DNA of 64,000 bases from positions 610,108-674,107 of the forward strand of contig MKSD01000001.1 of NCBI GenBank assembly GCA_001898075.1. The letters are read 5' to 3'. The notes beneath the pieces are model-generated. The model made no database searches. It was given only the letters and a program-made list of their open reading frames with translations, and was not told the origin of the DNA. Positions 31,412-36,787 of this stretch are shown here, piece by piece. This DNA is from Alphaproteobacteria bacterium 40-19. GTDB taxonomy: Bacteria; Pseudomonadota; Alphaproteobacteria; Holosporales; Holosporaceae. A program made the translations under genes and the position numbers. Position 1 is the stretch's first letter, and each line of letters opens with the position of its first letter.

Positions 31412-31420
31412 GATAGGAAT

Positions 31421-31508
31421 GGAGAGGTGGCCGAGCGGCTGAAGGCAACAGTTTGCTAAACTGTCATACACCAAAAGTGTATCGAGGGTTCGAATCCCTC
31501 TCTCTCCG
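31421..31508 (+). tRNA. tRNA-Ser (anticodon GCU)
   Basis: 88 bases with a full cloverleaf. The acceptor 5' GGAGAGG pairs with TCTCTCC (one G-U). The anticodon arm ACAGT-TTGCTAA-ACTGT presents GCT. A long variable arm (ATACAC with GTGTAT) is as expected for serine, and the T arm is GAGGG-TTCGAAT-CCCTC. The discriminator is G, and CCA is not encoded. It reads AGC and AGU codons. It has its own promoter after atpF. Confidence 0.97.
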
Positions 31509-31532
31509 TCAGGTTCTGAAATTTTTATTCAT

Positions 31533-31978
31533 ATGTTTAATTGGGACATCACTGTCAGCAATGAAAAAGAAACACAAATTTTAAACGATAAAATTATTTC
31601 TTTTAATAAGAACTGCACTCCGTTTACACAGAATACTCCTTTTATCAATTTGAATTTTCACATCAAAAATAAGCAAGGATCCATCATAGCAGGAATTCAA
31701 TCCCTTCTGTATTGTTGGGGAATGCTTTATGTTGATATTCTTTTTGTTGAAGAGGCCTATCGCCATCAACACCTTGGCAGTCTTTTACTAAGTAAAGTTG
31801 AAGCCGAGGGAAAATCATTGGGGGCAAGTCTGTGTCATTTAGATACCTTCGATTGGCAAGCCAAAGATTTTTATTTAAAGCAGGGATATGAAATTTAAAG
31901 CAGGGATATGAAATTTTTGGTATTTTAGAGGATTGTCCGCCAGGACATCAGCGCTATTACATGAAGAAAATATTATAG
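31533..31978 (+). pseudogene. GNAT acetyltransferase truncated by a 20-bp tandem duplication
   Basis: The frame from ATG 31533 encodes a GNAT N-acetyltransferase with the acetyl-CoA motif region FVEEAYRHQHLGSLLLSKVEA and the segment LDTFDWQAKDFYLKQGYE. It stops at 31898 after 121 residues because a 20-base unit (31874-31893) is repeated directly at 31894-31913, shifting the frame. If one copy is removed, the frame reads on through EIFGILEDCPPGHQRYYMKK to TAG 31976-31978, the normal family ending. The lost part is the last strand, so the short product is probably inactive. Confidence 0.88.
31874..31913 (+). repeat. Perfect 20-bp tandem duplication
   Basis: Two identical adjacent 20-base units, tttaaagcagggatatgaaa, at 31874-31893 and 31894-31913. 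The length is not a multiple of three and disrupts the GNAT gene. Confidence 0.95.
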
Positions 31979-32198: not shown

Positions 32199-32765
32199 TT
32201 ACAAGATGACCTGACGAAACGTAAGTGAAATACGCCTTTGTCTCTTGACTCTGTTATCACTTTTTCTTGCGGCAATACCATGTTTCCATTTATATCTAGC
32301 GTCTCCTTTAAGAATTAATAAGCTTCTAGGCTCAAAATATATAGACTTTTTGACATGACCATTTGTCATATCAATCATACATCCAGATGCTAGACCTAAT
32401 GAACAAATCGCATCTCCAAAACATGGAACGCAATCTACATGAGGAGCTATACCCTGACCAGGCAGATATTCGTTTATTATGACTTGATTTGGCTTATCTA
32501 TAAATATAGTATCGCGATGTACTTTACTGCATAACTCATCGACCCAATACGGCATTTGGCCAAGATAATAGGACGCATCCACGGATCTAGCCATATAATC
32601 ATATTTATAACCATAATGCTGAGTTCTGCGTTTTAAATCTAAATTCCACTGCTGAATATCAATGAGTTTTAGCAATTTTTCTTCGTATTCTGAAGAAATA
32701 TAGTTTGGGACATATGCAAGTCCAGGAATATTAATAATATCGTTCAATAAATAGTCCTGATTCAT
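32199..32765 (-). CDS. AlkB-type 2-oxoglutarate/Fe(II) dioxygenase
   Basis: 188 residues. The N-terminal GLAYVPNYISSEYEEKLLKLI is the opening seen in AlkB/ALKBH8-like proteins. The iron ligands are HVD (about residues 108-110) and the distal His in KWKHGI; the 2-oxoglutarate Arg is in RRISLTFR. NEYLPGQGIAPHVD matches the nucleotide-side strand. The family removes methyl groups from N1-methyladenine, N3-methylcytosine and N3-methyluridine/thymine, or hydroxylates tRNA wobble uridines. Its ATG overlaps the stop of the DUF2431 methyltransferase gene (ATGA), so the two are coupled. Which nucleic acid it acts on is not shown by the sequence. Confidence 0.9.
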   Translation of the reverse strand: MNQDYLLNDIINIPGLAYVPNYISSEYEEKLLKLIDIQQWNLDLKRRTQHYGYKYDYMARSVDASYYLGQMPYWVDELCSKVHRDTIFIDKPNQVIINEYLPGQGIAPHVDCVPCFGDAICSLGLASGCMIDMTNGHVKKSIYFEPRSLLILKGDARYKWKHGIAARKSDNRVKRQRRISLTFRQVIL

Positions 32766-33365
32766 ATTCCAAACTCATAAGTTGCAAATTTAGAATAATT
32801 ATCAATTCCACTTTCGTCTTGATGAGTCATTTTATGTTCATATTCTGGATAACCTTTGGGATCGAATCTGTACTTTACTGGATGGCTTATTCCTAATTCT
32901 TCAGCCAACTCACCAAAGCGAAACATATTATTATAAAAACCAGAATCAACGATAGTTATTAACACTACCCCATCTCTTTTTAAAATATAGGAAGCAGATA
33001 TTATAAATTTTTTCACTAAAAGATAATTTACATTTATCCCATTGATACCTTCTCTGCTACCAGAATGTGGAAATTGAAAAATGATTGTATCAAAAGCATT
33101 TGAGTAGAAATTTTTGTGCAATTTTGTTGCATCCAGCTCATGCAAAACTTTTATTCCAGCTTGCTTCAATACCCTAGCATTAAACTCTGTATACTCAGAC
33201 AATTCTGAATAACGTTCATATGTAGAAGTTATAAACTTAGGTAATACTTGTAATTTTTTTTATCAAGCTCATAGTAAAGCTTAAATTTCCTTCACCTACT
33301 AAAAGTGCATGATCTTCTTTTATTTTAGATACCAAATCGTATTTGGTGATGCTTTTATAAAACAT
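32762..33365 (-). pseudogene. DUF2431 (BMT5-like) methyltransferase with a homopolymer frameshift
   Basis: A Rossmann-type methyltransferase. From ATG 33365 the frame gives MFYKSITKYDLVSKIK and HALLVGEGNLSFTMSLIKK, the DUF2431 SAM motif, then stops shortly after an A8 run (plus-strand T8 at 33254-33261). With seven As the frame joins to SELSEYTEFNARVLKQAG, LHELDATKL, FDTIIFQFPHSG and the C-terminal part ending at 32762, all standard for this family. The family includes yeast Bmt5, which makes N3-methyluridine in 25S rRNA, and is found mostly in eukaryotes. The A8 run may be a real mutation, a slippage site or a sequencing error. Without correction the downstream frame alone gives a 146-residue fragment lacking the SAM loop. 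Confidence 0.85.
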
Positions 33366-33593
33366 GTACAATTTATGGTCTAAAGATTTCAATTATTTTA
33401 TTTGTTTTTAATAAAATTGATTAATTTGCTTTAAATTAAGACCAAATAATTTTGTTCTTAATTCTAATATTTTCAAATGACAGTGCATACCTTCCTTATT
33501 TATCATATACCTCCATATTAACAATTTACTTGATATAATATCATTATAAACCATGCACGCTAATCATCGAAAATAATGAAAAATAATTTTTAT

Positions 33594-34040
33594 TCACTTG
33601 CAAGTCTGCAAGTTACGAAAACACTCCAGAAGCAACTGCTCTAATAAAACTTTGTGATCTTCACTAAGGGTCAAGGTCATATGATCTTCAACTTTACGGA
33701 TCACGTGGTGAGCCTGCTGAACAGCTTGCATACCATCTTTTGTTAATACAATACGTAAAATTCTTCCGTGTTGTGGGTCGCTTTTTCGTTCTATAAGGTG
33801 CCTTTTTTCTAAATTGAAAACAATACCCTGCATGGTTTGAGCAGTGATAAACGAAAAGCGTGCTAAAGCCGCATTAGAGATTCCAGGTCTTAATTCTAAC
33901 TGAGCAAGAACCGCATATTGGGGCGTTGTCAGATCAATAGACCTTAAAGCTTCATCCATATGAAGGCGCAGCGCATGTTGAGTTTGCTTGAGCTTATACC
34001 CCAACAATCCTGTCACATTAAGTTCTTTATCTGTTGACAT
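33594..34040 (-). CDS. MarR family transcriptional regulator
   Basis: 148 residues with a winged-helix core: LTTPQYAVLAQLELRPGIS, recognition helix region NAALARFSFITAQTMQGIVFNLEK, wing RKSDPQHGRILRIVLT, and flanking helices for dimerisation. The ligand is unknown. It is divergent from the SnoaL-like pseudogene at 34096, and the 55-base gap between them contains a promoter overlapping an imperfect palindrome, the usual layout for a MarR repressor and its target. Confidence 0.92.
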   Translation of the reverse strand: MSTDKELNVTGLLGYKLKQTQHALRLHMDEALRSIDLTTPQYAVLAQLELRPGISNAALARFSFITAQTMQGIVFNLEKRHLIERKSDPQHGRILRIVLTKDGMQAVQQAHHVIRKVEDHMTLTLSEDHKVLLEQLLLECFRNLQTCK

Positions 34041-34562: not shown

Positions 34563-35075
34563 TTATTCATGCCCTACAAAGCGCCATAATTTATCTGTAG
34601 CTTTTGAAATACCAATACGTGGAGTTTTTATAATACGACGGAAATTCGTTCCTTGAGTCAGATAAAAATGTTCATGCTGCAGCAGATTGATTCCGTATTC
34701 ATGTTTTGTAATGCCAAGATGCTTACAGATTTTACCAGGCCCCTTTAAATGAAGATCGATTAATTTTAACCCCCGGATCAAAACCGCACTGGGGGCCCCC
34801 TCTTCTTCTGTTACAATATTCAAACAATAATGCATCCCATAAATCATATAGACATAGATATACCCTGGAGGGCCAAACATAGCTCTATTACGATCCGTTA
34901 TTCCCCGATAAGCATGAGAGGCCGGATCGTCCTTTCCCCTGTAGGCTTCTGTTTCTGTAATGATTCCACAAAAATGACGAAAAAACAGCATGCTCCCCAC
35001 AAGCTCTTCAGCCACTTGAACGGCATGACGGCCAAAAAAGCTAGGATCTGTTATCCTGTTAAAAGAGCCATTCAT
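34563..35075 (-). CDS. DNA-3-methyladenine glycosylase (AAG/MPG family)
   Basis: 170 residues, slightly short but complete in motif content. It removes alkylated purines in base excision repair. Visible are GIITETEAYRGKDDPASHAY with the catalytic Glu, MFGPPGYIYVYMIYGMHYCLN, the substrate pocket, and GAPSAVLIRGL. The final GPGKICKHLGI segment is also normal. It sits on the opposite strand to ada and alkD and close to the AlkB gene, which together make an alkylation-repair cluster. Confidence 0.94.
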   Translation of the reverse strand: MNGSFNRITDPSFFGRHAVQVAEELVGSMLFFRHFCGIITETEAYRGKDDPASHAYRGITDRNRAMFGPPGYIYVYMIYGMHYCLNIVTEEEGAPSAVLIRGLKLIDLHLKGPGKICKHLGITKHEYGINLLQHEHFYLTQGTNFRRIIKTPRIGISKATDKLWRFVGHE

Positions 35076-35419
35076 AAAGAAGAGTCTTTACAGCCATCTT
35101 ATTGAAAGCATAACGCATTCAATACAATATGTATGCCACTCTCTACGACAATATTTAGAGTTTCTTATCTGGTAATTCGATCATAACCTGGGAAAACTTG
35201 TACAAGAAGGCAGTGAAGTAAACGTTTTACTCTTTTTATTGGGACTCCCCAAAACGCTGTACCTACAGTCTAAGACCTTTTTAAATTTTTTCACTTCTTT
35301 TTAGAATAGAAGGAATCCTGTGAAGTAAAAAATCAATGCCTGAATTTCGACCCCAATTTTTTTTAAAAGTCCGTATAATCATTATAAATAACAGACTAAC
35401 AGACCCTTTTTAATATAAG
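35076..35419. other. Gap between the AAG-type glycosylase and ada
   Basis: 344 AT-rich bases with no gene that I can support. It presumably holds the divergent promoters of the glycosylase and ada genes. I could not fix an Ada box. Confidence 0.4.
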
Positions 35420-36480
35420 ATGCGCCCTATTACAGAAACCCAAAAAAAGGAGTTCTATCAAGCCCTTCTTGAAAAAAATAGCCATTTTGATGGGGTCTTT
35501 TTTGTGGGCGTTAAAACAACTGGTGTATTTTGTCATCCAACCTGTCATGCCCGAAAACCAAAATTTAAAAACTGTGAATTTTATAGAACAGCCCAAGAAG
35601 CCCACCTGGCGTATTCCAGGCCCTGTAAGCGCTGCAGACCTCTTTGTGCCCCGCATCAAGTCTCAGATTTAATCCGTACACTGGTTCATGCTGTTGAAAC
35701 AGAAAGCATTGGAAAGATCGTGATTTTGAAGTATGATCTGTTGATACCTCCACAGCCCGGCGTCAATTTAAAAAACGCTTTGGAATGACTTTTGTAAAAT
35801 ACGCCAGAGCCCGCCGCATAGGACTTGCCATGAAACAAATTCGTGCCGCAACCCCTGTCATTGATATTCAGCTGGATACAGGTTACAGGTCCAGTAGCGG
35901 CTTTAGGGATGCTTTTTCTAAAATCATGGGTGCACCACCTAGCAAATTGCGCCAAGATCATAACCAACCTCATAAAATTTTAAAAGTATCTTGGATAGAT
36001 ACCGTTCTGGGCCCCATAATAGCCATCGCAGATGATGCAGGCCTTTATCTTTTAGAATTTGTGGACAGGCGCGGTTTAGAAGCAGAAATTCAAAGACTAA
36101 GATTAAAGACCAAAGCAGCCATGATCCCCGGTCACACCCAACCTATAGAGTCCATCACTTTGGAACTTAAAGCTTATTTTGATGGGGATCTAAAAGAGTT
36201 TGCCACCCCTATTCATCTGTTGGGAACTCCTTTTCAAAGGCTTGTTTGGAAAGAACTGCTGCGCATTCCCTATGGTCAGACCAAAAGCTACGCCTTCCAA
36301 GCGCAGGCTGTTGGAAAACCCACAGCTTACCGGGCGGTTGCCAATGCCAATGGCACAAACCAGCTGGCCCTTATAATCCCATGTCACCGTATCATCAATA
36401 GTAATGGTGACCTTGGTGGTTATGGCGGTGGAATGATGCGCAAAAAATGGCTCATAGATCATGAACAATACCATGCCTAG
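35420..36480 (+). pseudogene. ada: Ada alkyl-transfer protein and regulator, frameshifted
   Basis: The first frame (35420-35788) encodes the methyl-phosphotriester domain with its zinc Cys: GVFCHPTCHARKPKFKNCEF and RPCKRCRPL. The second frame, ending at TAG 36480, encodes the AraC-type HTH (STARRQFKKRFGMTFVKYAR, DTGYRSSSGFRDAF) and a complete O6-methylguanine transferase domain with PCHRII. The frames meet near 35700-35710, where the second frame reads HWKDRDFEV before a TGA and then SVDTSTARRQ. So there is one frameshift plus one nonsense codon. The open second frame from about 35785 could still give an HTH-transferase fragment. Full Ada would repair DNA and induce alkylation genes. Confidence 0.88.
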
Positions 36481-36787
36481 CATCATTCAAAGCGTACGAG
36501 ATGTTTTACAAGAATCCATTGATTCTACCCCAGAACAAGCCTCGCGCTTCTTTAAAACCAACGTCGGGGATTACGCAGCCCACGATCAGTTTATGGGAAT
36601 CAGCGTACCCAAACTAAGGAAAATTGCAAAAAAATTCAGGTCATTAAACTTAGAAGATTTAGCACTGTTGTTACAATCTGTCATCAATGAAGAACGCTTA
36701 TTGGCTCTTATTATACTGAACCTTTTGAATTTTACTCATTCGCACCTCAGTTTTGGCTCATTCAATATGACCAATACCACCAACTGA
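36473..36787 (+). pseudogene. AlkD-like DNA alkylation repair protein, N-terminal fragment
   Basis: About 104 residues. FFKTNVGDYAAHDQFMGISV followed by PKLRKIAKKF and LLQSVINEERLLALIIL is the N-terminal HEAT-like region of the AlkD glycosylase family, which is normally near 220-240 residues. After NLLNFTHS the sequence no longer matches and stops, so more than half is missing. The start ATG 36473 overlaps the ada stop by eight bases; ATG 36461 would add four residues. The ada-alkD overlap suggests an operon. Confidence 0.8.

Follow-up and report, generated by a model that had tools for sequence, protein, structure and literature searches.

A BMT5-like methyltransferase gene paired with an ALKBH8-type alkB gene across Alphaproteobacteria: a candidate RNA-modification cassette

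All BMT5-like methyltransferase genes found in Alphaproteobacteria are followed, on the same strand, by an alkB gene of the ALKBH8 type. This was observed in 33 out of 33 distinct loci, including that of the window (the whole stretch of 64,000 nucleotides analysed here, positions 610108-674107 of one 988-kb contig), where the methyltransferase copy is broken. The reading that we prefer, with a probability of roughly one in two, is that the pair constitutes a horizontally moving two-gene cassette for RNA modification. Neither a joint description of DUF2431 and AlkB nor an earlier account of a BMT5-like gene paired with an ALKBH8-type alkB was found in the literature searched, which covered few subscription journals.

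A scan of genome contigs for BMT5-like genes returned 61 loci: 48 gammaproteobacterial ones, with no alkB beside the BMT5-like gene in any of them, and 13 (L021-L033) from Alphaproteobacteria or Micavibrio-like MAGs, each with alkB directly downstream. An Azospirillum brasilense strain (L029) is among those whose pair is intact. In an even draw of 385 Alphaproteobacteria genomes, 9 carried a gene that scored as BMT5-like above the Pfam cut-off, always next to an ALKBH8-type alkB, and the AlkB profile detected the subfamily (over 200 bits) in 15 genomes, among which all 9 are included (Fisher P about 1e-14). Further loci were obtained from a phylum draw (one, G626) and from the order of G119 (twelve, one being L033 again). 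The two genes are directly adjacent in 31 of the 33 pairs, with intervening sequence in L086/L118 and L163, and they overlap by exactly 4 bases in 12 of the 16 pairs measured, namely those with a readable methyltransferase stop. When the ORFs of 21 neighbourhoods were clustered, alkB and the methyltransferase gene were the only genes in common. The pairing exceeds chance and extends far beyond this genome, so that restriction to a single genome, which the original prediction had named as a refuting finding, does not apply. The dependence is one-sided, since ALKBH8-type AlkBs were also found without a BMT5-like gene.

The two protein trees mirror one another (r 0.71 with 21 pairs and 0.79 with 17; Mantel P 0.0002), which may have no other cause than that linked genes were transferred together. 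The pairing is old within Alphaproteobacteria, and among the bacterial and viral sequences searched the closest relatives belong to other members of the class, such as Azospirillum, Micavibrio and Rhodospirillaceae. An origin in a protist host, as initially proposed, was thus not supported by this search. No relatives of the methyltransferase were found in viral contigs, and a giant virus or a phage was rejected as its source.

Intact METHYLTRANSFERASE homologues (n=12) have in common a GEGNxSF motif, in frame with the rest of the protein, and the FQFPxxG region. One of them, from L004, scored 118 bits against PF10354, and its structural model (pLDDT 86) is that of a class I methyltransferase, with diverse nearest solved folds, including TrmB and MnmM, whose similarity is weak (TM 0.5-0.6) and indicates no substrate. 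Yeast Bmt5, which makes m3U (m3U2634) in 25S rRNA, shares the PF10354 domain with the bacterial proteins over the curated cut-off; unlike Bmt5, these are predicted enzymes of about 200-260 amino acids encoded in an operon with AlkB, and the window copy is broken. Among the gammaproteobacterial BMT5-like proteins, which stand alone, one (L034:4977-5759) shows a weak C-terminal zinc-finger-like match.

The AlkB of the window is, judging from its sequence and predicted fold, of the bacterial ALKBH8 type and not of the E. coli repair type. In a phmmer comparison with solved structures, the L004 AlkB matched human ALKBH8 best (1.4e-31), against about 5e-4 for E. coli AlkB; a Foldseek search with the model of the window AlkB (mean pLDDT 92.6) gave ALKBH8 as top match, and ALKBH8 and ALKBH6 as the best folds. 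Models of DNA-repair AlkB were failed by the window protein, with 28.5 bits for NF011930 (cut-off 267) and 19.7 bits for TIGR00568 (cut-off 231). The ORF has the HxDxnH iron triad (H109, D111 and H162), the RX5R arginines (R178 and R184) and, in agreement with the original prediction, RISLTFR; the five numbered residues are invariant across the AlkB alignment. E. coli AlkB, of the Ada regulon, shares this HxD...H and RX5R core, and an ada-like gene lies near the window AlkB; nevertheless, apart from failing the repair model, the window protein has Val at the base-pocket position of E. coli Asp135, which we take to be the residue four after the first iron histidine (H+4). Nearly all paired AlkBs have Val, Thr or Ile at H+4, and an acidic residue was found only in some viral-contig members of the subfamily. 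As a marker of pairing this residue was rejected, since Val occurs in unpaired AlkBs too.

The 195-aa AlkB of Roseobacter denitrificans pTB4 (L006) is a close relative placed inside the tree of these proteins, and corresponds to the "RD" protein of an earlier biochemical study (PMC4051686) in species as well as in length. In that study RD acted in vitro on m3C and etheno adducts, as did other bacterial proteins of the ALKBH8 type, but showed no repair activity in vivo; the R. etli AlkB, for which in vitro repair of m3C or etheno adducts is described, works in vivo too, and an Agrobacterium homologue has no role in tRNA-Gly(UCC) modification. Its authors favour a role in RNA modification, leaving the substrate open. 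RD and the Rickettsia felis protein RF belong to the same subfamily as the paired AlkBs, but RD has no BMT5-like neighbour and pairing is not described in the available part of the study (PMC4051686). The gene upstream of the pTB4 AlkB, considered as a candidate methyltransferase, was discarded for giving no family match over cut-off.

The occurrence of ALKBH8-type AlkBs without a BMT5-like gene counts against an RNA-modification cassette, and so do the in vitro activities of the RD and R. etli proteins. These activities suggest that AlkB could instead be an alkylation-damage repair enzyme, and the methyltransferase a passenger gene, or else an RNA enzyme of the same operon with an unrelated task. 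The in vivo activity of the R. etli protein points in the same direction, as does the presence in the window of genes for MPG, Ada and a truncated AlkD within 5 kb. However, these three genes are absent from the 20 further neighbourhoods with which the window was compared, so that the repair cluster was rejected as a conserved context of the pair; moreover, the score against the repair model is about a tenth of its cut-off, RD lacks repair activity in vivo, and no BMT5-like gene was found in Alphaproteobacteria that lacks a linked ALKBH8-type AlkB. We therefore consider a repair function doubtful. The AlkB groups with ALKBH8 and not with E. coli-type repair AlkB, so the second finding by which the original prediction would have been undone does not apply either.

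In the RNA-modification cassette that we favour, the BMT5-like class I methyltransferase would methylate rRNA or tRNA at a base that is probably a uridine, and the ALKBH8-type dioxygenase, produced by coupled translation from the same message, would then oxidise the same or a neighbouring nucleoside. We infer that the substrate is RNA and the target uridine, that AlkB takes a second step instead of removing the methyl group, and in which order the enzymes act. The constant presence of AlkB with the methyltransferase, and the frequent occurrence of AlkB alone, fit a methyl mark whose maturation or undoing depends on AlkB. An RlmN/Cfr-like gene next to AlkB in two related viral contigs (L128 and L129) was also counted in favour of this reading.

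Animal ALKBH8 combines RRM, AlkB, zinc finger and Trm9-like methyltransferase domains in one protein, and its target is the wobble uridine of tRNA-Gly(UCC). By analogy, the pair is best read as mechanistically similar, with a methyltransferase and an AlkB enzyme acting on one RNA and the methyltransferase coming from an unrelated family. In both cases the AlkB domain derives from the same branch and the two enzymes are made together, whereas the bacterial pair consists of two separate overlapping genes, its methyltransferase is BMT5-like and not Trm9-like, and RRM and zinc finger are missing. The likening to ALKBH8 in the original prediction was therefore apt, given that the AlkB groups with it. 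If the enzymes act in sequence, the combination of a methyltransferase with AlkB, as in ALKBH8, would have been invented twice. The pairing offers a first lead to the target of bacterial ALKBH8-type enzymes, a question left open by PMC4051686: the strictly linked gene codes for an RNA methyltransferase whose activity in eukaryotes is known, so that the substrate search is narrowed to one methylated nucleoside.

If, on the contrary, the enzymes oppose each other, the methyltransferase would make N3-methyluridine and AlkB would remove it, either for regulation or as a poison-antidote pair, and bacteria would possess an RNA mark that can be reversed. Three observations were counted for such antagonism: no alphaproteobacterial methyltransferase of this family was found lacking its AlkB, AlkB being often alone; seven loci (WIN, which is the window, L028, L031, L086, L087, L088 and L165) have a damaged methyltransferase frame, and only L033 a damaged AlkB; and the settings are mobile, close to tRNA genes and integrases. 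Nevertheless, the asymmetry of decay is not significant (6 vs 1, P 0.125) and some of the damage may be due to assembly errors, so the methyltransferase-first pattern is suggestive only. Furthermore, BMT5-like genes exist without AlkB in Gammaproteobacteria, and no test of m3U removal by an ALKBH8-type AlkB was reported in the literature searched. Removal of the methyl group by AlkB appears to us quite unlikely. A still bolder version, which we regard as a long shot, is a mobile system in which the methyltransferase harms host or invader RNA by methylation and the ALKBH8-type AlkB reverses the harm. It would explain why the methyltransferase is never found without AlkB in Alphaproteobacteria and tends to decay first; in that case, the AlkBs of this subfamily that phages carry would serve as counter-measures. 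Overall, two-step modification of one RNA is favoured, followed by repair and then by removal.

The features of the window locus are listed in Table 1. The overlap of the methyltransferase stop and the alkB start as ATGA, reported beforehand, was confirmed in the sequence, and the two genes probably share one transcript. The methyltransferase, taken originally as intact up to 33365, is not a single ORF. Its footprint spans 32762-33506, and three-frame translation shows that GEGNLSF does not share the frame of DATKL and FQFPHSG, so that the SAM motif, in frame in the 12 intact relatives, is out of frame here. The Pfam search likewise returned two pieces in different frames (profile 1-21 and 19-167), the 3' ORF alone scoring 79.7 bits against PF10354 (cut-off 24.7 bits).

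Table 1. Features of the window around the methyltransferase-alkB pair
Feature	Position	Strand	Evidence or remark
tRNA-Ser(GCT)	31420..31510	+	689 bases from alkB end
GNAT-like ORF	31533..31920		Apparently shortened by a ~20-base tandem duplication around 31880-31910
alkB, ALKBH8-type Fe(II)/2OG dioxygenase, 188 aa, intact	32199..32765	-	PF13532 5e-16; closest structure and fold matches human ALKBH8
L033-homologous block containing pair and leader	32237..33599	-	81% DNA identity; alignment stops at both sides
3' portion of BMT5-like methyltransferase, 146-aa ORF from TTG, without SAM motif I	32762..33202	-	PF10354 4e-22, profile 45-167
A8 homopolymer (T8 on + strand), site of the methyltransferase frameshift through one extra base	33254..33261	-	Three-frame translation; DNA alignment to L033
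5' portion of methyltransferase, other frame, with GEGNLSF; originally assumed ATG 33363-33365	33262..33365	-	Pfam pieces, three-frame translation
N-terminal extension remnant; ancestral ATG 33504-33506 preceded by GGAGG; in-frame TAA 33408-33410 and 33393-33395	33366..33506	-	Alignment to L033 247-aa protein
Alkylation-repair genes	34563..36787
MPG glycosylase	34563..35075	-
Two overlapping ORFs of a split Ada-like gene	35420..35788 and 35785..36480	+
AlkD-like ORF, truncated	36461..36787	+

The lesions were identified by comparison with L033, an uncultured alphaproteobacterium that matches the window over 1363 bases and whose methyltransferase is intact, although the C-terminus of its own AlkB is damaged. 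Relative to L033, the window shows one additional A in the A8 run and two in-frame TAA codons. With respect to the same locus, dN/dS values of 0.18 (methyltransferase, 3' part) and 0.19 (AlkB) were obtained, indicating that both genes were under selection until recently. On these sequence features, we read the window methyltransferase as a young pseudogene; being broken, the cassette may no longer work in this genome. A methyltransferase that still functions, starting at the internal ATG of the 5' portion and with its frame restored by slippage at the A8 run or by correction of a sequencing error, would leave that run as the sole lesion and would agree with the dN/dS value; slippage at long A runs occurs in AT-rich symbionts. 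However, the two TAA codons remove an N-terminal extension that is retained in the closest relatives, and genes near the pair (GNAT, AlkD and SnoaL-like) likewise appear truncated, making continued function rather improbable.

Several observations bear on mobility. The surroundings of the tRNA-Ser(GCT) gene are likely an integration neighbourhood. The same tRNA gene lies nearby in L161 and L165, and a tRNA gene, for different isoacceptors, was found within 1 kb in 8 of 22 loci (P 2e-4 at 8% expected and 3e-3 at 12%, the expectation being rough). An integrase-family ORF recurs in L023, L024, L027 and L088 (one checked with Pfam). Relatives of the window lack the pair at this site, other genes being located between the GNAT remnant/tRNA-Ser(GCT) and MarR, and the distribution of the pair is sporadic. 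AlkBs of the ALKBH8 type are present in viral contigs too, several beside a phage portal-like gene (one checked with Pfam).

In the provirus-like contigs L120, L121, L123, L125, L126, L130-L133 and L137, the portal-like ORF lies upstream of the ALKBH8-type AlkB (Pfam checked in L120), and several of these AlkBs have Glu at the H+4 base-pocket position. The RlmN/Cfr-like radical SAM enzyme of the two viral contigs (L128:4998-7332 and L129:4968-6409) is encoded by the next gene on the AlkB strand, and directly abuts AlkB in L129, a 448-kb contig. On Picosynechococcus plasmids (L007:2034-3558 and L008:2025-3549), AlkB follows a different class I methyltransferase, whose L007 protein matches the PADLOC candidate defence family C3a159 (4e-118); profile comparison rejected it as BMT5-like. 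In G269 (L111:2371-3788), AlkB overlaps an upstream protein that is weakly methyltransferase-like (25% identity to that of Picosynechococcus over 102 aa), and G286 (L115:5764-8007) encodes a 748-aa ORF with a C-terminal AlkB domain and a remainder without family match. Finally, in a Micavibrio MAG (L028:6838-10093) the pair is followed, as judged by eye, by RtcB-like and PrfH-like genes.
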